A DNA stretch of 64,000 nucleotides, taken from Streptomyces sp. Q6 (GTDB taxonomy: Bacteria > Actinomycetota > Actinomycetes > Streptomycetales > Streptomycetaceae). A model generated the notes under the pieces. That model was not told the DNA's origin. It was given only the letters and a program-made list of their open reading frames with translations, and searched no databases. The stretch spans positions 1,798,001 through 1,862,000 of the forward strand of contig NZ_CP146022.1 of NCBI RefSeq assembly GCF_036967205.1. Reading direction: 5' to 3'. Positions 5,620 to 13,730 of this stretch are shown here, piece by piece (within the stretch, counting starts at the first letter, position 1; the number at the start of each line of letters is the position of its first letter). A program made the position numbers and the translations under genes.

Positions 5620-6585
5620 TTACGGCTTGGGCAGGCCCTTGGGGTTGATCTCGGACTTCGGCACGGCCTCGCCGGACAGGCCCCACCGCTTGAGGACCTT
5701 CGCGTACGACCCGTCCTCGATCACGTGGTTCAGCGCGGCGGCGTACGCGTCGACGAGCCCGCTGCCCTTCTTCGTGGTGGCCGCGATCTTGCCCTGGACC
5801 AGGTCGCCGCCGCCGGAGATGGTGCCGGCGATCCGCGACTGCCCGGCGGACGCCACGTGGTAGGCGACGGCGGGACTCGGGCCCAGGTAGCCGTCGATGC
5901 GCCCCGACTGGAGGGCGAGGTAGTAGTCCGTGTCCTTCTGGAAGTACTTGATGGTGACGGGCTTCAGGCCGGCCTTCTCGGCCTGCTTGCTCCAGTCGAC
6001 GAGGATCTTCTCCTGGTTGGTGCCGGAGGAGACGGCGACGGTCTTGCCCGCGACGTCCTTGGGCCCCTTGACCTGCCAGCTCGACCCCTTCTTCGCCTCG
6101 AAGGCGATGTTGTCGAGCCGGTACGTCGCGAAGTCGTACTTCTCCTTGCGCTCCTCGGTCACCGTCACGTTGGAGAAGACGGCGTCGAACTTCCCGCTGT
6201 CCAGGCCGACGAACAGGTTCTCCCAACTCACCAGCTCCTGCTGGATCTTGAGGCCGAGGGTGTCGGCGACGAGGGTCGCGATGTCGATCTCGGAGCCGAT
6301 CCGGGTCTTGTCGTCGGTGGCGAAGAAGCCGAGCGGTGGCGAGGCGTCGGCGCTGCCGCCGAGGCGCAGCGTGCCGCGCTCACGGACGGCCGCCGGCAGC
6401 AGCGCGGCGATCTCGTCGACCTTCTTGCCGCGGACGCGGTTCTGGTCGGGCCCGATGTTGATGTTGCCGACCTTCTTGGTCCGGGTCGTGGTGGTGGCCG
6501 CGTCGCTGTCACCTCCGCAGGCGGTGAGCAGCGGAGCCAGGGCGAGGGCGGCGACGGAGGCGGTGAGGGTGCGGCGGGACAGCAT
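5620..6585 (-). CDS. ABC transporter substrate-binding lipoprotein (polar amino acid family)
   Basis: This 321-residue exported lipoprotein of the family-3 (amino-acid type) solute-binding proteins has the signal peptide and lipobox LLTACGG, giving a lipidated Cys near residue 26. The two-lobed domain shows GTLRLGGSADASPPLGFF at the start of lobe I, GSEIDIATLVADTLGL, and TVTEERKEKYDFATY at the hinge. The ATG at 6585 follows AGGAG. It lies in the operon directly after the ATPase gene and before the LLM genes. A second lipoprotein with the same architecture lies divergent at 11558, so one importer may be fed by two receptors. The ligand is unknown; amino-acid-type sulfur compounds would fit the context. 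Confidence 0.85.
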   Translation of the reverse strand: MLSRRTLTASVAALALAPLLTACGGDSDAATTTTRTKKVGNINIGPDQNRVRGKKVDEIAALLPAAVRERGTLRLGGSADASPPLGFFATDDKTRIGSEIDIATLVADTLGLKIQQELVSWENLFVGLDSGKFDAVFSNVTVTEERKEKYDFATYRLDNIAFEAKKGSSWQVKGPKDVAGKTVAVSSGTNQEKILVDWSKQAEKAGLKPVTIKYFQKDTDYYLALQSGRIDGYLGPSPAVAYHVASAGQSRIAGTISGGGDLVQGKIAATTKKGSGLVDAYAAALNHVIEDGSYAKVLKRWGLSGEAVPKSEINPKGLPKP

Positions 6586-6640
6586 GGGCGTACTCCTGAA
6601 TGGCTCGGTGCGTGGGCAGAGAAAAATGCGGGCTACGGGG

Positions 6641-7432
6641 TCAGAGGACCTTCGACAGGAAGGCCTTCGTGCGTTCCTCGCGCGGGGCGTCGAGTACGTC
6701 GCCGGGGGCGCCCTGCTCGACGATGCGGCCCTCGTCCATGAAGACGACGGTGTCGGCGACCTCACGGGCGAAGCCGATCTCGTGCGTGACGACGATCATC
6801 GTGGTGCCCTGGTGGGCGAGGTCCTTGATGACGTCGAGGACCTCACCGACGAGTTCCGGGTCGAGCGCGGACGTCGGCTCGTCGAACAGGAGCAGCTTGG
6901 GTTCCAGGGCGAGCGCGCGGGCGATGGCGACGCGCTGCTGCTGGCCGCCCGACAGCTGCTTGGGGTAGGCGTCGGCGCGGTCGCCGAGCCCGACCCGGTC
7001 GAGGAGTGCGCGCGCGGTCTCGACGGCCTGCGCACGCGGCCGCTTGAGCGCGGACAGCGGCGCCTCGATGATGTTCTCCAGGACCGTGAGGTGCGGGAAC
7101 AGGTTGAAGTTCTGGAAGACGAAGCCGATGTGGGTGCGCTGTTTCAGTACCTCGCGCTCGCGCAGCTCGTACAGCTTGTCCCCGGAGCGCCGGTAGCCGA
7201 CGAGCGATCCGTCGACGCTGATCCAGCCGCTGTCGACCTTCTCCAGGTGGTTGATGGTGCGCAGCAGGGTGGACTTGCCGGAGCCGGACGGGCCGAGTAC
7301 GACGGTCACCTCGCCGGTGCGTACTTCGAGGTCGATGCCGCGCAGCACCTCGACCGCGCCGAAGCTCTTGTGCACGGACCTGATGTCGACCATGGCCGGG
7401 GCGGGTGCGGGGGTGGGAGCGGGGGCGCTCAT
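6641..7432 (-). CDS. Amino-acid-type ABC transporter ATPase
   Basis: This 263-residue ATP-binding subunit of a polar amino-acid type importer is cytoplasmic and associated with the permeases. Walker A is GPSGSGKST, the Q-loop lies in [11 protein letters not shown], the signature is LSGGQQQR, Walker B is [13 protein letters not shown] and the switch His is in VTHEIGF. The first 13 residues are an Ala-Pro run ([11 protein letters not shown]) before the domain starts at [11 protein letters not shown]. The ATG at 7432 overlaps the stop of the upstream permease (ATGA). It is the only ATPase of this type in the cluster although two permease genes are present, so both permeases presumably use it. 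Confidence 0.9.
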
Positions 7433-8316
7433 CGGGTGGCACCTTTCGAGAAGTGGCGCTCCACGTAGTACTGGACCACGGAGAGTGCGCTGGTCAGCAG
7501 GACGTACCAGGCGGTGGCGACCATGAGCAGGGGCACCACGCGGCCGTTGCGGCCGTAGATGACCTGCACCTGGTAGAAGAGTTCGCCGATCGCCATGACG
7601 GAGACGATCGAGGTGCCCTTGAAGAGGGAGATGACCTCGTTGGCGGCGTTCGGCAGGATCGAGCGCATCGCCTGGGGCAGCACGATCCGCCGGATCTGCC
7701 GCAGGCGCGGGATGCCGAGGGCGGCCGCGGCCTCCAACTGGCCGCTGTCGACGGCGAGTACACCGCCGCGCACGATCTCGGCGGCGTACGCGGCCTGGTG
7801 CAGGGCGAGTCCGAGGACGGCCGCGCTCATCGCGCCGACGAGCCCCATCGTGTCGAAGGAGAAGAAGCCGGGCCCGAAGGGGATGCCGAACTGCAACTCC
7901 TTGTACAGGTAGGCCAGGTTGAACCAGAACAGCAGCTGCACGATCAGCGGGATGGACCGGAACGCCCAGATGTAGCCGAACGCCACCGTCGTGAGGAACC
8001 GGCTCCGCGACAGCCGCATGAAGGCGAGGACGATGCCGAGGGCGAAGCCCAGCGCCGTTCCGTAGAAGGTGAGTTGGAGGGTGGTCCAGACGGCCTTGAG
8101 GATGACGTCGGCGGTGAAGAACTCGCCGAACACCTGCCATTCCCAGCCCGGGTTGGTGACGAGGCCGTGGGCGAACTGGGCGAGCAGGACGGCGGTCGCG
8201 GCGATGGCGACCCAGCGCCAGGGGTGGCGTACGGGGACGACCTTCAGCCGTGCGTAGTCCTCGGCGGGCGGCGACTCGGCGGTCTTGCCGAGGGGTGGGT
8301 CGGCGGTCAGAGACAT
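7429..8316 (-). CDS. Amino-acid-type ABC transporter permease (first of two)
   Basis: This 295-residue inner-membrane permease of the HisMQ/GlnP family has about five hydrophobic segments, starting with one near residues 35-55. The cytoplasmic EAA-loop signature is [21 protein letters not shown], followed by [21 protein letters not shown], which docks the ATPase. The ATG at 8316 follows a GAGGA site. The gene is coupled to the ATPase gene by an ATGA overlap. Its relative at 10169-11083 is similar in length and motif, suggesting a heteromeric permease or two alternative porters. Confidence 0.88.
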
Positions 8317-8381
8317 GGCGGTCCTCAGGAGGAGAGCAGAAAGGGGAAGGGCGGCGGAAAAGAGAGGAGAGGTGCGCGCGT

Positions 8382-10172
8382 TCAGGCGGCGGTGGCGCGA
8401 CAGGACAGGTCGCGCAGGAGCCCGAGGACGGCGCGCGCGGTGGCGTCGTTCTGCCGGAACGACGGGCTGTTCGTGCGGGGCCGGGTGAACGCGCCGGCGC
8501 CCCGCGCGTTGGTGTGCGGTCCGAGGGCGAACCGGCGCGGATGGGCGCCGCCGTCGCGGTACAGGACCCGTCCGTCGTCGGGGTCGACGGCCAGCAGTCC
8601 GGCGGGAGTGGAGACGGCGCCCTCCGCGTGGAGGGTGCGAAGGAGCCGGTCCCGGGTGCGGGCGAGCGTGGGCTGCGGCAGCCGGGCCTCGACGAGTGCG
8701 CGGGCCTCGATCACCGTGCCGGGCACGGTGGCGCTGGTCGCGCGGAACACGCCGCCCTCGGCGCGGACCCGCATGTCGGCGCCGACGAAGCGGACCACTC
8801 CGGCGCGGGAGAGCGCGAGCAGTTGGCGCAGCCGGGGTCCGGGCGGCCCGGAGGCCAGGTAGCTGAAGAAGCCGTGCCACCAGGTGCCGACGTCGCCGAG
8901 CCGTACGAGCTGCCCGTACACGGAGAGCAGGCCGAGGAAGACGGCCAGGTCGGGGCTGTGCTCCGGGTCGTGACGGCGTTCGAGGTCGGCGGTGACGTAG
9001 CCGCGCAGCGCGTCCTGCAACTCCTCGGACGAGGAGAGCCGTACGCCGTCGAGCGGGTGGTCGAGGGCGGCGAGGTCGAGCCGGTCGGCCGGATCGGGCA
9101 CGGCGGAGGCGACGAGCGCCTGGAGCTCCGCGCTGAGCGGCGCGGCGGCGGCGTACTTCTCCTCGAAGTCCCCCCAGGCGACGGCGGTGCGCTCGGGGTG
9201 CGCGGTGAACAGGCGGTGGTAGTGCGCGTAGCCCAGCTCCTTGTCGATGAGCGGCCACACGTCGCGCCGGAAGTCGAAGCCGCCGTCCCGGGCGAGGAGC
9301 TCGTCGATCTCGGCCGGTCCCAGGAAGCGGGGCAGCGGGGGTCGCTCCCCCGCGTCGGCGTCCCAGTCGTAGCCGAGCTTGGAGTGGTACGGCACGCCGC
9401 GCCGCGACCCCACGTACAGGACGGGCTCGCGCCCCGACGGGATGTACCGGTCGCCTTCGTAGCGGCCCCCGCGTCCTTCCGTGAGCAGCACCATCAGGTC
9501 GACGAAGGCGAGCCCGAAGCCGCGGACGAGGACGTCCTGGCCGGGCGCGAGGGCGGACAGGTCGGAGTCCGCGGTGAAGTCCGGCGGCAGGTGCACAAGC
9601 CGGTGCCGGGCGGCGTACGCGCTCAACTCGCGCTGTTCGTCGTCGAGTTCGGCGTCGAGGTGGCCCTGGGTGAGGACGACGGCATCGGCGTTCAGCGGTC
9701 GCGCCCTGCCCTCCAGCCACACCTGCTGGATGCCGCCGCGCGGTCCGCTCACCCGGACCGCGCGCCGCGCGTGGTGGTGCACGACGACCCCGGCGGGCAG
9801 GTCCGCGACGGCCTTCTCGTACACCCAGCGCAGATATCCGCCCTGGCGGCGCCGGTCGGCGAAGACGCGTCCGCCGATCCCGGCCCACTCGTGCAGCGCG
9901 GGTCCCGGCAGGACGGGCCCGGACACCTGCACGGTGTCGTCGGTGAACATGGTGACGTCCTGGGCCTCGGAGTTCATCCACAGCAGCGGCGACTGCTCCT
10001 GCCGCCAGATGCGTCCGCCGCCGGGCGCGTACGGGTCGACGAGATGCACGTCGAGCGCCAACGTCTCCTCGGTGTCCCGGGAGTTGGCGGCGATGCGTTC
10101 CAGGATGCCGGTCCCCCGCGGCCCGGCTCCGACGATGACGAGTGACTGCCGCGCGGGCAGTTCGGTGCTCAT
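8382..10172 (-). CDS. FAD/NAD(P)-binding oxidoreductase-like protein within the transport operon
   Basis: This 596-residue flavoprotein has the N-terminal dinucleotide-binding motif [11 protein letters not shown] (residues about 11-22), followed by [13 protein letters not shown], as in the NAD_binding_9 / FAD-NAD(P) family. A second conserved stretch, [17 protein letters not shown], lies near residues 215-235, and the C terminus has [17 protein letters not shown]. There is no signal peptide. The ATG at 10172 overlaps the permease stop (ATGA). Related proteins sit next to amino-acid ABC genes and flavin monooxygenases in actinobacteria. A role as reductase or N/S-oxygenase for the imported compound is likely, but which reaction it catalyses cannot be told from the sequence. 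Confidence 0.75.
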
Positions 10173-11083
10173 CGCTGCGTCCCGCGCGCGTAGTGCCGCT
10201 CGATGTAGTGCTGTCCGACGCTGAGCAGCGAGGTGACGACGACGTACCAGAGCGTGGCGACGAGCAGCAGCGGGATGACCTGGTACGTGCGGTGGTAGAC
10301 GAGCTGCACGGAGTACAGCAGGTCCTGCACGGCGATGACGCTGACGATGGAGGTGCCCTTGAGGGTGCCGATGAGCATGTTCCCGGCCGGCGGCACGATG
10401 GAGCGCATGGCCTGCGGCAGCACGATCCTGCGCCAGCGCCGGTAGCGGCTGAGGCCGAGCGCCTGAGCGGCCTCGATCTGGCCGCGGTCGACGGAGAGGA
10501 TGCCGCCGCGCACGACCTCGGCGGCGTACGCGGCCTCGTGCAGGGTCAGTCCGATGATGGCGACGGTGACGGGCCCGAACAGGTCGACGGTCTTCACGCC
10601 GAACAGCTGCGGGTAGAGGGCGCCGATGTTGAACCAGAACAGCAGCTGCACCAGGATCGGCATCGAGCGGAACAGCCACACGTACCCCCAACTCACCGAG
10701 CGGAGTACAGGGTTGGCGGACAGCCGCATGACGGCGAGCAGGGTGCCGAGGGCGAAGCCGAGGGCCATGACGAGCGCGGTCAGCCACAGGGTGAGGCCGA
10801 GCCCGCGCAGCACGGACGTCGTCGTGAAGTACTCCGCGACGACGTCCCACTGGAACGCGTCGTTGCGCAGGACGGAGTCGACGACGAGACCGAGCAGGAC
10901 CAGCAGGACACCGGCGGTGATCCACTGGCCGACGCGGCGGCGCGGGACGATCCGGGGCAGGCCGGCCGCGTCGGCGGCGGGCGGAATCTTGGTGAGCGCC
11001 TCCGAGGACACCGACGACGCCGACGACACAGAGGTCGCCGAGGCTGTCGAGGCCGCGGAGGACACCGAGGATGCTGAGGACAT
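10169..11083 (-). CDS. Amino-acid-type ABC transporter permease (second), first gene of the operon
   Basis: This 304-residue HisMQ-type permease carries the loop EAAQALGLSRYRRWRRIVLPQ and AMRSIVPPAGNMLIGTLKGTS. The first 30 or so residues are an unusual Ser/Ala/Val run (repeated SSASSVSS), seen at DNA level as imperfect repeats at 10995-11083; the membrane part starts near residue 53. The ATG at 11083 is preceded by GGAG. It opens the minus-strand operon and faces the divergent leader peptide/lipoprotein unit across about 170 bases. Confidence 0.87.
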   Translation of the reverse strand: MSSASSVSSAASTASATSVSSASSVSSEALTKIPPAADAAGLPRIVPRRRVGQWITAGVLLVLLGLVVDSVLRNDAFQWDVVAEYFTTTSVLRGLGLTLWLTALVMALGFALGTLLAVMRLSANPVLRSVSWGYVWLFRSMPILVQLLFWFNIGALYPQLFGVKTVDLFGPVTVAIIGLTLHEAAYAAEVVRGGILSVDRGQIEAAQALGLSRYRRWRRIVLPQAMRSIVPPAGNMLIGTLKGTSIVSVIAVQDLLYSVQLVYHRTYQVIPLLLVATLWYVVVTSLLSVGQHYIERHYARGTQR

Positions 11084-11255
11084 GGGAAGGCTCCGTGGTG
11101 CTGGACATCCAGCACGGTCTTGCCTTCACACCTGCGTCTTGGCACCGAGCCCCTCAGCAGCGGTGCCGCACCGAGAGTAAGGGGCTCCTCACGCCTGCTG
11201 TCAAGGCTGTCCACACTATGAGCCGTGCGTCTCAGGCGAGTTGACGGAGAACCGG
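11084..11255. promoter_or_regulatory. Divergent promoter region of the scavenging cluster
   Basis: For the minus-strand operon there is a perfect TTGACA -35 (11199-11204 on the plus strand as TGTCAA). A TACTCT -10-like hexamer lies 19 bases further (11174-11179). Its untranslated leader contains a 7-base inverted repeat, GGCACCG/CGGTGCC (11141-11147 and 11161-11167), and a second potential pairing GAGCCCC/GGGGCTC. For the plus strand, TATGAG near 11218-11223 is the best -10 candidate, about 33 bases before the leader-peptide ATG. The promoter calls are by eye only. Confidence 0.45.
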
Positions 11256-11348
11256 ATGCCTGTTCCACTTGTGCCCATGCATCCGCAGCAGTGGCTGGTC
11301 ACACGCTCCCACATCGACTTCGGTCGAGTGTGGTCCGCGTCTTGTTGA
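11256..11348 (+). CDS. Putative regulatory leader peptide (30 residues)
   Basis: A 30-codon ORF begins ATG at 11256, six bases after GGAG (11246-11249), and ends TGA at 11346-11348. Its C-terminal half reads LVTRSHIDFGRVWSASC, ending in a Cys codon right before the stop. The R-x-H-I/V-D-L/F-x-R-V-x-S-A-x-C pattern is, to my recollection, the signature of short leader peptides annotated upstream of sulfur and cysteine uptake genes in Streptomyces and mycobacteria. It is followed by about 200 bases of pyrimidine-rich leader before the binding-protein gene. Predicted role: nascent-peptide or Cys-codon-sensitive attenuation of the downstream lipoprotein gene. The reading frame and site are seen; the function is inference. 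Confidence 0.7.
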   Translation: MPVPLVPMHPQQWLVTRSHIDFGRVWSASC

Positions 11349-11557
11349 TGCCCTTCCGACGCCTCTGAGCGCGTCACTCTCTTTTTCTCCTCTGCTTTTT
11401 TTCTTCGCCTCTTTCGGCGATCCCTCTTTCCTCGCGATCCGTGTACGCGCCTGTCGTCGGCGTGTACCCGCCCGCGCCTTCACCCTGCCGCGCCGCTCCA
11501 CCTCCCCTCCCCTCGCGTAGCCATGCATGTGTTCCCTGAAGGGCAGAACTCCACGCC
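11349..11557 (+). promoter_or_regulatory. Pyrimidine-rich untranslated leader between leader peptide and binding-protein gene
   Basis: The 209 bases hold no gene. From about 11376 to 11450 the plus strand is almost pure C/T with several T runs (for example CTTTTTCTCCTC and GCTTTTTTTC), exceptional in this GC-rich genome. Unstructured C/U-rich RNA just after a regulated small ORF is what a Rho-loading site would look like, so conditional termination is plausible. A later stretch (11480-11516) is also C/T-rich. Confidence 0.4.
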
Positions 11558-12502
11558 ATGCGCCCCACCACCCTGACGTCCACGTTCGCGCTGATCACCG
11601 TCGCCACGCTGGGCCTGACCGCGTGCGGCTCCGGTGACGCCGCGACGAACGACGCGGCACCCGCCGCCGCTCGCAACGACAAGATCCCCACGAAGGACGT
11701 GGTGTCGGCCGTCACCGAGGACCCCGCCTCGGTGAAGCTGCTGCCCGCCGACGTCCGCAAGAGCGGCACCCTCAAGATCGCCGTGAGCGTCGGCGGCAAT
11801 CCGCCGGGCTCCGTGTACCTGCCGGACGGGAAGACGGTCGTCGGCCAGGACATCGACTTCGCGAACGCGGTCGCCAAGGTGCTCGGTCTCGAACTGGACC
11901 AGGAGGTCGCGAGCTTCGAGGCGATCCTGCCGGCGCTGGACAGCGGCAAGTACGACCTGGGCACGGGCAATTTCGGTGTCACGGACGAGCGCCGCAGGAC
12001 GATCGACTTCGTCACGTACATCAACGACGGCCAGGGCTTCGCCGTCCGCAAGGACAGCGACCTGAAGAAGGTCACGGACCTGAAGCAGCTGTGCGGCCTG
12101 AACGTGGCGACGGGCGCGGGCACCACGTTCGAGGCGACGCTGGAGGAGAACAAGAAGGTCTGCGCACAGGCGGGCGAGAAGGCCTACGACGTGAAGACGT
12201 ACGCCGAGCCGAGCGCGATCTGGTCGTCCTTGCAGCAGGGCCGCTCCGACGTGGTGATGAGCACGATCAACGGCCTCCGGTACGCCGTCGCGCACCAGGA
12301 GGGCCTGAAGTTCCTCAACGAGTTCCACCGCCTGGACGTCGGCTTCGCCTTCAAGAAGGGCACGCCCTACGCTCCCGCGTTCCGGTCGGCGGTGAACAAG
12401 CTGATCGCCGACGGCACGTACGCCAAGATCCTGGCCAAGTGGGGCACGGGCGCTTCGGCGATCGACCGCTCGGAGATCTCCCCGCCGGAGATCAAGGACT
12501 AA
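11558..12502 (+). CDS. Second ABC substrate-binding lipoprotein, divergent from the operon
   Basis: This 314-residue lipoprotein of solute-binding family 3 has a signal peptide with lipobox LGLTACGS, a short disordered Ala-rich linker, then GTLKIAVSVGGNPPGSVY, GQDIDFANAVAKVLGL and DERRRTIDFVTYIND. It is paralogous in layout to the lipoprotein at 5620-6585 (same length class and hinge motif) but diverged, so the two probably bind different ligands for the same membrane complex. It contains two Cys in the mature domain (LCGLN and KVCAQ) that could pair. Expression is likely controlled by the upstream leader peptide. The TAA stop abuts the terminal repeat of a MITE-like element at 12503. Confidence 0.85.
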   Translation: MRPTTLTSTFALITVATLGLTACGSGDAATNDAAPAAARNDKIPTKDVVSAVTEDPASVKLLPADVRKSGTLKIAVSVGGNPPGSVYLPDGKTVVGQDIDFANAVAKVLGLELDQEVASFEAILPALDSGKYDLGTGNFGVTDERRRTIDFVTYINDGQGFAVRKDSDLKKVTDLKQLCGLNVATGAGTTFEATLEENKKVCAQAGEKAYDVKTYAEPSAIWSSLQQGRSDVVMSTINGLRYAVAHQEGLKFLNEFHRLDVGFAFKKGTPYAPAFRSAVNKLIADGTYAKILAKWGTGASAIDRSEISPPEIKD

Positions 12503-12673: not shown

Positions 12674-13630
12674 CTAGGTGTATTGACCCGCAGGGTTGTT
12701 GACGCGGGTGATGGGTGGCTGGCCGCCGAGTGCGGTGTGGCTGCGGTGGTGGTTGTAGGTGTGCAGGAAGTCTGCCAGGGCCGCGGTGCGTTCGTCGTTT
12801 GAGGTGTAGAGCCGCAGGTAGGCCCATTCCTCGAGCAGGGTGCGGTTGAAGCGTTCGACCTTGCCGTTGGTCTGGGGCCGGTAGGCGCGGGTGAGCTTGC
12901 CACTCGCGCCGAGTTCGGCCAGGACGTTCTTCCAGGCCAGGCCCTTGCGGTAGGCCCAGGCGTTGTCCGTCAGCACGCGTTCGATGCGGGTGATGCCCAT
13001 CTCGGCGAAGAACGCGGCCGCGCGGGTGAGGAAGGCCGCGCAGGTCGCGGCCTTCTCGTCCGGGTGGATCTCGCTGTAGGCGAGGCGGGAGTGGTCGTCG
13101 ACGGCCGAGTGGATGTAGTCGTAACCCATGTTGTTGCGGGTGACGCGGCCGGCCTGGCGGCCCAGGGCCTTGTGGCCGCCGCCGTCGGGAATCCGGCCGA
13201 GTTTCTTCACGTCGATGTGGATCAGTTCGCCGGGCCGGTCGCGTTCGTAACGGCGGATCACGGTGCCGGTCGGCCGGTCGATCCAGGACAGCCGGTTCAG
13301 CCGGTGGCGGGTCAGAACGCGGTGCACGGTCGAGGCGGGCAGTCCCAGGATCGGGCCGATCCGGGCCGGCCCGAGCTTGCGGTCGGTCCGCAGCCGGCAG
13401 ACGTCGGCCTCGATACTCGCCGGGGTCCGATGCGGTGTCGTCAAAGGCCTGCTGGAGCGGTCGGCCAGGCCCGCCCCGCCCTCGGCTCGCCACCGCCGGA
13501 GCCATTTATGGGCGGTCGCCCGCGAGATGCCCATCTCGGCGGCGACATGGGCGACGGGACGGCCGGACGCGACACGTTCGACCAGCAGGCGCCTGCCGTG
13601 CACGGTCAGCCGGGCATTACGGTGGGACAC
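12674..13630 (-). CDS. IS481-family transposase
   Basis: This 318-residue DDE transposase is full length for the family. The N-terminal helix-turn-helix is SRATAHKWLRRWR, following VSHRNARLTVHGRRLLVERV. The catalytic core shows the first Asp in ELIHIDVKKLGRIP, the second Asp in VLTDNAWAYRKG and the Glu in NGKVERFNRTLLEEW. The GTG start at 13630 follows GGAGG. The stop codon TAG (12674-12676) lies outside the element, inside the duplicated CTAG target, so insertion at the right sequence supplies the stop. The ribosome-binding site is inside a long inverted repeat (13631-13683). Confidence 0.9.
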   Translation of the reverse strand: MSHRNARLTVHGRRLLVERVASGRPVAHVAAEMGISRATAHKWLRRWRAEGGAGLADRSSRPLTTPHRTPASIEADVCRLRTDRKLGPARIGPILGLPASTVHRVLTRHRLNRLSWIDRPTGTVIRRYERDRPGELIHIDVKKLGRIPDGGGHKALGRQAGRVTRNNMGYDYIHSAVDDHSRLAYSEIHPDEKAATCAAFLTRAAAFFAEMGITRIERVLTDNAWAYRKGLAWKNVLAELGASGKLTRAYRPQTNGKVERFNRTLLEEWAYLRLYTSNDERTAALADFLHTYNHHRSHTALGGQPPITRVNNPAGQYT

Positions 13631-13730
13631 GAAGACCTCCGTGTGGTGCAGTCCTAGACAGCTCCACCACACCGGAGGTCTTCGCCATGATCAAGACCCG
13701 CCAGTGTCAACAACGCTCGTGATCAATACA
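12679..13730 (-). mobile_element. IS481-family insertion sequence with CCTAGG target duplication
   Basis: The element is 1052 bp, starts TGTATTGA and ends TCAATACA. Further end similarity lies inside the terminal repeats (GTTGTTGAC near both ends). It is bracketed by direct copies of CCTAGG at 12673-12678 and 13731-13736. This agrees with the NCTAGN target preference known for IS481. It carries one transposase gene on the minus strand and sits between a MITE-like element and an IS5-type element. Confidence 0.85.
13631..13683 (-). repeat. Inverted repeat sequestering the IS481 transposase ribosome-binding site
   Basis: The arms 13631-13648 (GAAGACCTCCGTGTGGTG) and 13665-13683 are complementary apart from one extra base, with a 16-base loop. 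In a transcript entering from outside the IS, the GGAGG of the transposase gene would pair with the other arm and the start would be hidden. This is a known strategy by which insertion sequences avoid activation by read-through transcription; here it is inferred from the sequence alone. Confidence 0.6.

Follow-up and report, generated by a model that had tools for sequence, protein, structure and literature searches.

The leader frame and its neighbourhood

The window, by which we mean the whole 64,000-nucleotide stretch of Streptomyces sp. Q6 that was analysed, carries a short leader frame between two divergently oriented sets of genes (Table 1). On the forward strand the leader is followed by the gene for a solute-binding lipoprotein (SBP1), and directly behind this gene lies an IS481-type transposase, i.e. 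an insertion element adjoining the cluster. On the reverse strand runs an operon that opens with an ABC transporter permease (PERM1) and whose 5′ UTR holds a candidate structured RNA, R1. No match was found for carriage of the intergenic stretch on plasmids.

Table 1. Features of the leader locus, in window coordinates
Feature	Position	Strand	Basis or remark
Remaining divergent operon: permease, ATPase, second SBP (approximate starts)	5620..8385	-	
FAD-NAD(P)-binding protein (start inferred)	8382..10172	-	PF13454 E 3e-35; synteny
ABC transporter permease (PERM1), first gene of divergent operon	10169..11083	-	PF00528 E 1.9e-23
Candidate structured RNA (model R1), 5′ UTR of divergent operon	11078..11166	-	ends just past operon start codon
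TTGACA, -35-like element of divergent promoter	11199..11204	-	
Predicted promoter	11241..11269	+	-35 TTGACG 11241-11246, 17-nt spacer, -10-like TCCACT 11264-11269
Leader peptide ORF, 23 codons, MHPQQWLVTRSHIDFGRVWSASC*	11277..11348	+	positionally conserved start; synonymous-site conservation
Predicted RNA hairpin in ORF	11309..11333	+	CCACA/UGUGG and CGAC/GUCG around UUCG tetraloop, over HIDFGRVW codons
Putative regulatory Cys codon UGU (position D+9), last sense codon	11343..11345	+	subfamily and wider-family codon counts
Terminator-like hairpin (11358-11375) with T-rich tail	11358..11402	+	terminator scan, 1 found against 0.4 expected in shuffles, weak alone
Conserved element GCCTTCAC	11476..11483	+	complementary to element of divergent RNA; of the 10-mer GCCTTCACAC, 8 letters are kept in the window
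Conserved C-rich element CTCCCCTC(CCCTC)	11502..11514	+	77/87 S-type loci
GCCUUCAC			leader-side element of putative RNA pairing with R1
Solute-binding lipoprotein, family 3 (SBP1), downstream gene	11558..12502	+	PF00497 E 1.4e-25
IS481-type transposase	12674-13672	-	PF13011 E 7e-13, PF13683 E 3.6e-17

A preliminary description of this DNA had proposed a leader ORF at 11256–11348 (+) with a proper ribosome site, Cys as last sense codon and a gap of about 210 bases to the lipoprotein gene. This 93-base frame is present in the window and reads MPVPLVPMHPQQWLVTRSHIDFGRVWSASC*, its last sense codon is TGT, and 209 bases separate its stop from the start of the lipoprotein ORF. We searched with a codon-degenerate HIDFGRVW pattern, open at every synonymous site and with Arg limited to CGN. 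The pattern matched once in the window and in none of 100 shuffles; it was found in 177 of 295 Streptomyces genomes, a reversed control pattern in none, and, among the matches listed, the core also occurs in named loci of the actinobacterial genera Kitasatospora, Streptacidiphilus, Saccharothrix, Solihabitans, Micromonospora and Plantactinospora. The contig scan for the pattern amounted to at least 119 stretches, and the loci were reduced to 169 distinct sites, that of the window included. At least 120 bases upstream and 400 bases after the stop were available for 160 of these (nine, too near an end, were dropped), which were divided by C-terminal sequence into 87 S-type and 73 D-type loci. 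The sequences are related and thus non-independent, and all counts stand uncorrected for descent.

The ribosome site and the start codon proposed earlier did not survive comparison with these relatives. An alignment of 26 sequences, including that of the window, has in common, in the part listed, TTGAC, approximately 17 bases, a TCCACT-like hexamer, 6–8 bases and an ATG, and it is inside the spacer of this conserved promoter that the ATG at 11256 and its GGAG are found. The GGAG is not conserved in relatives, and the ATG is absent from two loci (L013 and L025) and out of frame wherever the promoter lies 35 nt from the start. With start codons chosen by script, the start lies 35 or 36 nt from the first T of TTGAC in 86 of the 87 S-type loci (35 in 68, and 36, the value of the window itself, in 18), and in D-type loci TTGAC lies 35–37 nt 5′ of the start in 70 of 73. 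This spacing fits a start codon at or next to +1, and we therefore place the ORF at 11277–11348 and treat it as leaderless. The leader peptide is most likely one of 23 residues translated off a leaderless mRNA, with transcription probably starting at or adjacent to AUG 11277. A scan of the window with a stricter sigma-70 consensus did not report the promoter.

Codon constraint in the subfamily and the wider family

Since the search pattern itself dictated HIDFGRVW and CGN, the informative positions of the core are confined to the remaining synonymous sites. Over the 169 sites the codons are CAC (169), ATC (168), GAC (169), TTC (169), GGT (165, with GGC in 4), CGN, GTG (168) and TGG (169), and the last letter of CGN is free (A 42, T 16, C 62 and G 49). 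In the genes beside the S and D loci, which served as the base line, GGT makes up 7.3% of Gly codons and GTG 39.7% of Val codons. The HIDFGRVW subfamily thus fixes the synonymous sites that build a predicted UUCG hairpin, in which the free CGN letter is unpaired and the paired letters are invariant, and hence offer no covariation to test. The hairpin was not kept in the 17 members of a wider leader family that were folded; it is therefore a feature of the HIDFGRVW subfamily and is ruled out as a family-wide one.

The Cys codon at D+9, counted from the conserved Asp, is UGU in 167 of the 168 readable subfamily sites, with one further site at an edge, and Cys codons elsewhere after the His are of both kinds (UGC 41, UGU 35). 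Among the genes neighbouring the subfamily loci, UGU accounts for 127 of 890 Cys codons (14.3%). At one site (L188:1501-1560) the Cys at D+9 has been lost from the leader frame, which continues past the usual stop, and this represents either a natural mutant or a sequencing error. Judged by its conservation, the leader ORF is real and strongly selected, far beyond chance.

The wider family was gathered by profile searches, and leaders over the cut-off of the NCBI model NF042934 (cis_reg_atten, 27 bits) occur nine times in the genome of Q6 and in 68 of 98 class-wide genomes, at up to ten per genome. From the matches listed, 118 loci were fetched, 107 of which gave a counted member, and 110 distinct members were aligned. 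The uncounted loci comprise repeats (L039, L042, L207, L208, L210 and L211, and L256, which repeats L230), L195 (below the cut-off and without Cys), L219 and L222 (match near a contig end, unplaced) and L269, which has the UGU and was missed by the filter. The motif filter, applied to 63 members, asked for Arg or Leu at D-4, His, Val or Ile, Asp, and Arg at D+3. Match coordinates and [VMI]D[LFN] alone served to place the remaining 47, and both Arg residues (D-4 and D+3) and the Cys are present in every one of these. Neither route required Cys at D+9, although the profile search itself favours Cys there.

Among these 110 listed members the codon at D+9 is UGU in 108 and UGC in two; of all other counted Cys codons in the same members, 112 of 139 are UGC (39/45 at D+2 and 27/34 at D+7). 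After D+9 the codons are variable and the stop follows 0–15 codons on, and the UGU is therefore not a by-product of one downstream context. Arg at D-4 and Arg at D+3 are each found in 110/110 with five codons in use, Asp in 110/110 with both of its codons, and Leu at D-7 in 106. This amino acid conservation is partly a product of the profile search, but the codon pattern is not. Fixation at the amino acid level 6–16 positions before the stall codon is the pattern expected from nascent-chain-assisted stalling, and the fixed Leu, Arg, Asp and Arg with free synonymous codons suggest such stalling at one UGU.

A plain amino acid attenuator, in which the number and place of Cys codons alone count, the rest of the peptide plays no active part and RNA structure accounts for the fixed sequence, might be read from the subfamily, the core of which is fixed at nearly every nucleotide, including GGT, GTG and the UUCG hairpin. 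The wider family, however, drops the hairpin and yet keeps Arg, Asp and Arg with free codons, and many of its members carry a single Cys codon. We consider a plain attenuator unlikely on these grounds, and nascent-chain-assisted stalling remains the reading that we prefer.

Back-to-back leader pairs on opposite strands were also observed (G024:C59:21531-21917, G370:C251:3248-3485 and G416:C172:14727-14898), so that some divergent operons seem to have one family leader each.

Known leader families, sulfur genes and the stretch before SBP1

The best model for the window peptide was NF042936 (Ms4527A-family Cys-rich leader; E 3.4e-5), to which the 30- and 23-residue forms score 23.3 and 23.5 bits, under its 45-bit cut-off, and neither form matched NF042934 at E 10. 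Lying under both NCBI cut-offs, the window peptide is therefore not filed as a member of either model. By a criterion derived here, which is not NCBI's definition, it has the Leu, Arg, Asp, Arg, Cys pattern with UGU at D+9. With NF042934 it shares a core of Leu, Arg, Val/Ile-Asp, Arg, a Ser-like residue and Cys, the UGU at D+9 and a place as a short ORF before sulfur genes. Unlike NF042934, it has Trp at D+5, HIDFGR and the internal UUCG hairpin, and it has one Cys in contrast with the Cys-rich tail of NF042936. We regard it as a sister subfamily of NF042934 and NF042936, working like them as far as the sequence tells.

TnaC and SecM are arrest peptides with conserved residues within tunnel distance of the stall codon. 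The window leader appears to resemble them in having conserved residues at tunnel distance from its proposed stall codon, but the stall proposed here would depend on a shortage of Cys-tRNA and not on an excess of ligand. In mycobacteria, leaderless polycysteine attenuators upstream of sulfur genes were reportedly described by Canestrari and colleagues in 2020, and in the mycobacterial model the leader is said to free the RBS of the next gene (RBS sequestration). The window leader is like these attenuators in being a short ORF, probably leaderless to judge by its promoter spacing, with a Cys codon at its 3′ end and upstream of sulfur genes. It differs from them in the absence of a run of several Cys codons, since it has a single UGU as its last sense codon, in the strong conservation of the peptide body, and in that folding gave no support for RBS sequestration in the Streptomyces loci.

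In PMC4633059, Cys-rich uORFs on leaderless mRNAs are proposed as attenuators in mycobacteria, and PMC9094748 and PMC13236596 refer to work of 2020 on the regulatory role of these uORFs, with Canestrari et al. (2020) cited in the latter as translation attenuation. No cysteine leader is among the eight Streptomyces lividans leader peptides listed in PMC8079986. In the literature within reach of our search, with subscription papers mostly outside it, we found no statement on the fixed UGU, the HIDFGRVW subfamily or R1. The kind of leader is thus already known from the actinobacterial and mycobacterial cysteine leaders, and what is new is the fixed UGU, the fixed residues with free codons, the UUCG hairpin, R1 and the retention of the leader at loci that lack the transporter genes.

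The likeness to leaders of sulfur genes, which the preliminary description had offered, holds, given the sub-cut-off match to NF042936 and the genes behind the other leaders of the genome of Q6. For 12 NF042934 matches (E up to 0.001) and a second HIDFGRVW leader we scored the first gene clearly recognizable behind the leader, and all 13 of these leaders precede sulfur or sulfur-compatible genes. These genes encode two luciferase-like monooxygenases (one of which comes nearest, below cut-off, to models of alkanesulfonate monooxygenase), a sulfatase, a ThiS-family protein with a PALP enzyme next to it (CysO/CysM-like), a cysteine dioxygenase, a rhodanese with DUF1416 behind it, a TauD-family dioxygenase, a sulfite/nitrite reductase, an FMN reductase, an ABC permease, NMT1-type and family-5 binding proteins and a dicarboxylate-type symporter. 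The last five kinds are sulfur-compatible and not sulfur-specific, and sulfur is not necessarily what a sulfite/nitrite reductase or a TauD relative acts on. In addition, a luciferase-like monooxygenase is the first tested gene within 700 bases in 33 of the 73 D-type loci, often followed by GNAT, SBP, permease and ATPase genes.

The transporter set of the window consists of family-3 solute-binding and polar amino acid ABC transporter genes. For each of the five transporter genes the three best NCBIfam matches include a cystine model, always below its curated cut-off. For SBP1 the top three, all below cut-off, are the StpK7 kinase (SBP-like part) and the lysine/arginine/ornithine and cystine binding proteins, and for PERM1 ectoine and cystine permease models match below cut-off; the FAD-NAD(P)-binding protein has no NCBIfam match. 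The leader-linked genes probably form a sulfur-nutrient transporter, and the cluster presumably resembles the S-alkyl-cysteine/cystine salvage operons of Bacillus. The sulfur reading of the leader is supported by the predicted functions of the genes behind the 13 other leaders, and we infer that the cluster of the window is sulfur-responsive.

In the S-type loci the first 120 nt past the stop are C-rich and G-poor (C 0.48–0.52, G 0.20–0.28), a composition that is suggestive of Rho-dependent termination. Perfect stems of at least 8 pairs occur within 45 nt of the stop in 17.2% of S-type loci, compared with 2.2% of dinucleotide shuffles, and 33 stems of at least 7 pairs within 60 nt have 25 different 5′ arms and vary in position. 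D-type loci have no excess of terminator-like stems over shuffles, and the folding energy of the post-leader region is weakly unusual (mean z -0.55). For sequestration of the RBS of the SBP gene by the leader transcript we found no support, as masking the leader left the predicted accessibility of the SD unchanged over 33 loci (mean 0.097 vs 0.101), although folding alone cannot exclude it. These 33 come from the 48 S-type loci with a recognized SBP start, the rest of which lacked GGAG in place or had too long an RNA. The sensor part of the proposed switch is well supported, its output part tentative.

The divergent RNA R1 and the proposed control by cysteine

The R1 hairpin with loop GCUGAGGGGC shows compensating stem changes, with a mean Watson–Crick stem of 5.67 within loci and 3.73 between loci (the highest of 200 between-locus permutations was 4.10), and a stem of at least 5 pairs is found in 68 of 89 distinct flank pairs. 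Beside the start codon, GUGUGAAGGC pairs with GCCUUCGC (92.9% of cells paired), enclosing CCGUG/CACGG. In an alignment with a structure drawn by hand and helix 1 in two registers, the cells paired, the cells changed on both sides and the covariation score exceeded all 500 shuffles, and the other two of the five measures did not rise above them: pairs changed on both sides numbered 5 compared with 3.9 (reached by 123/500 shuffles) and further pair types 16 compared with 16.1 (351/500). A loop-to-SD pairing preferred by RNAalifold on A1 had no pairs changed on both sides and was discarded. The copy in the window folds at z -2.65.

In the genome of Q6 the R1 model has one significant match (70.6 bits), and it was found in 30 of 61 genus genomes and in three of 98 class-wide genomes, all three of the same genus. 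R1 lies within 350 nt of a window-type leader match in all 30 of these genus genomes (coordinates compared by hand), including the SBP1-less loci L008, L010, L012 and L021, and leader, R1 and FAD gene therefore stay together. For window positions 10900–11700, Rfam 15 gave no family over its gathering score (a herpesvirus snoRNA at E 0.19 and c4-a1b1 at E 0.1 both lay elsewhere), and six relatives gave one fungal sRNA match at E 0.32, which is not credible. R1 is like the riboswitches and leader RNAs of Rfam 15 in being a structured 5′ UTR ending at a start codon, but unlike them it has no match over the gathering score, and it is a candidate for an undescribed structured RNA. When the divergent strand of the window was inspected for a second Cys leader, the one frame noticed was GTG...RHRC at 11154–11216 (-), which lacks the family motif.

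In 60 of the 87 S-type loci PERM1 opens the divergent side and an SBP, GNAT or monooxygenase gene stands behind the leader. In 22 others (for example L010, L012, L021, L075 and L148, with leader and FAD gene and without SBP1 and PERM1) none of these genes is behind the leader, PERM1 was not found and the FAD gene comes first. Five loci fall outside both groups, among them L165, in which the FAD gene is downstream of the leader on the same strand. A convergent DUF5685 or GTPase gene faces the leader within 600 bases in 16 of the 22. Overall, the leader is retained in 25 of the 87 S-type loci where no tested gene lies downstream on the same strand, which means that ten query proteins had no tblastn match there and leaves room for other genes; in L028 a co-directional frame, SepF-like by eye, lies 577 bases on, and L052, L122 and L182 had no hit of any kind. 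Regulation of the lipoprotein gene therefore cannot be the sole role of the leader in these loci. As the S-type loci were gathered by the HIDFGRVW pattern, leader retention needs independent evidence, which comes from the R1 matches in the 30 genus genomes, each beside a leader. The 26 loci without a downstream SBP, GNAT or monooxygenase gene (L165 included) keep R1 in 24, the promoter spacing in 25, the UGU in 26, GCCTTCAC in 23 and CTCCCCTC in 20. In the 60 loci with such a gene, GCCTTCAC is found in 41 and CTCCCCTC in 56.

The leader transcript might act mainly on the divergent operon, with GCCUUCACAC and CUCCCCUC pairing with GUGUGAAGGC and the GAGGGG loop of R1 so as to free or block the start region, and with cysteine gating the amount or exposure of the RNA. 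GCCUUCACAC is the exact complement of GUGUGAAGGC and CCCCUC that of the R1 loop GAGGGG; both leader elements are thus complementary to two of the most conserved elements of R1, in the correct antiparallel order, and 51 loci carry the 10-mer pair in exact form. The 10-mer flanks, however, are without covariation (an extension as long as that observed arises in 182 and 242 of 1000 permutations), the 10-mer is directly repeated in the DNA and could be a protein-binding site, and the window has eight of its ten letters. Of 92 loci, 65 have both GTGAAGGC in R1 and GCCTTCAC in the leader, 17 have neither and ten are discordant, and R1 adjoins a leader in all 30 genus genomes in which it was found, but shared ancestry of the loci can account for such co-occurrence, and of the discordant loci two have the leader element without that of R1 and eight the reverse. 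The longest complement is 10.1 within the same locus, 9.3 between loci (9.07–9.53 in 20 permutations) and 7.5 in shuffles, and the retention of GCCTTCAC and CTCCCCTC in most of the 26 loci without a downstream transporter gene also speaks for pairing. D-type loci with R1 have GCCTTCAC in 5/9 and CTCCCCTC in 8/9, those without R1 in 2/62 and 7/62 respectively; those with R1 probably represent the same locus, its peptide extended at the end, so that the counts are not independent. Taken together, we think it rather improbable that the transcript acts mainly in this way.

The repeated CTTCAC could instead be the operator of a transcription factor for both divergent promoters, with the leader responsible only for fine tuning. 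On the forward strand it flanks the leader: of the 87 S-type loci, 74 have it in the 450 bases upstream and 75 in the 250 bases that follow the stop. Both copies nevertheless lie inside the transcripts, downstream of both promoters, and the R1-side copy is in the paired helix beside the start codon, which makes such an operator a decidedly doubtful proposition. An equally doubtful extension of the leader model is that one cysteine-gated transcript controls both divergent operons, with stalling at the UGU setting the level or shape of the leader RNA, which would pair in trans with R1, and with the UGU perhaps sensing both the charging of Cys-tRNA and wobble decoding by a sulfur-modified tRNA-Cys. 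If true, two-operon control would explain the survival of the leader without transporter genes in approximately a quarter of the loci. That the ORF is a product of chance or a dead frame, as the lack of any NCBIfam model over its cut-off might suggest, is contradicted by its conservation, both synonymous and position-specific, in the genus and outside it, and can be dismissed.

The model that we favour, and consider likely, is that of a leaderless cysteine-sensing leader ORF in which ribosome stalling at the single UGU raises the expression of downstream sulfur-nutrient uptake genes. Transcription would begin at or next to the AUG, and a ribosome would translate 22 codons before reaching the UGU at the end of the ORF. 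There the conserved nascent chain (Leu, Arg, Asp and Arg, the last Arg six residues before the Cys) would slow it. UGU is read by wobble, and one such codon may suffice for a stall when Cys-tRNA is short. Stalling would then raise expression of the downstream uptake genes, here that of the SBP lipoprotein, probably via attenuation in the C-rich, hairpin-bearing stretch of 209 nt that precedes it.

The UGU, fixed in 275 of 278 leaders, offers a sharp and cheap test of sensing by a single Cys codon. The leaders that have no transporter gene behind them, together with the divergent RNA, raise the question of whether a leader peptide can regulate beyond the gene behind it. With wider-family leaders in more than two-thirds of the class-wide genomes and a sulfur or sulfur-compatible context behind every leader scored in the genome of Q6, the UGU rule would matter for sulfur regulation across a large bacterial group.
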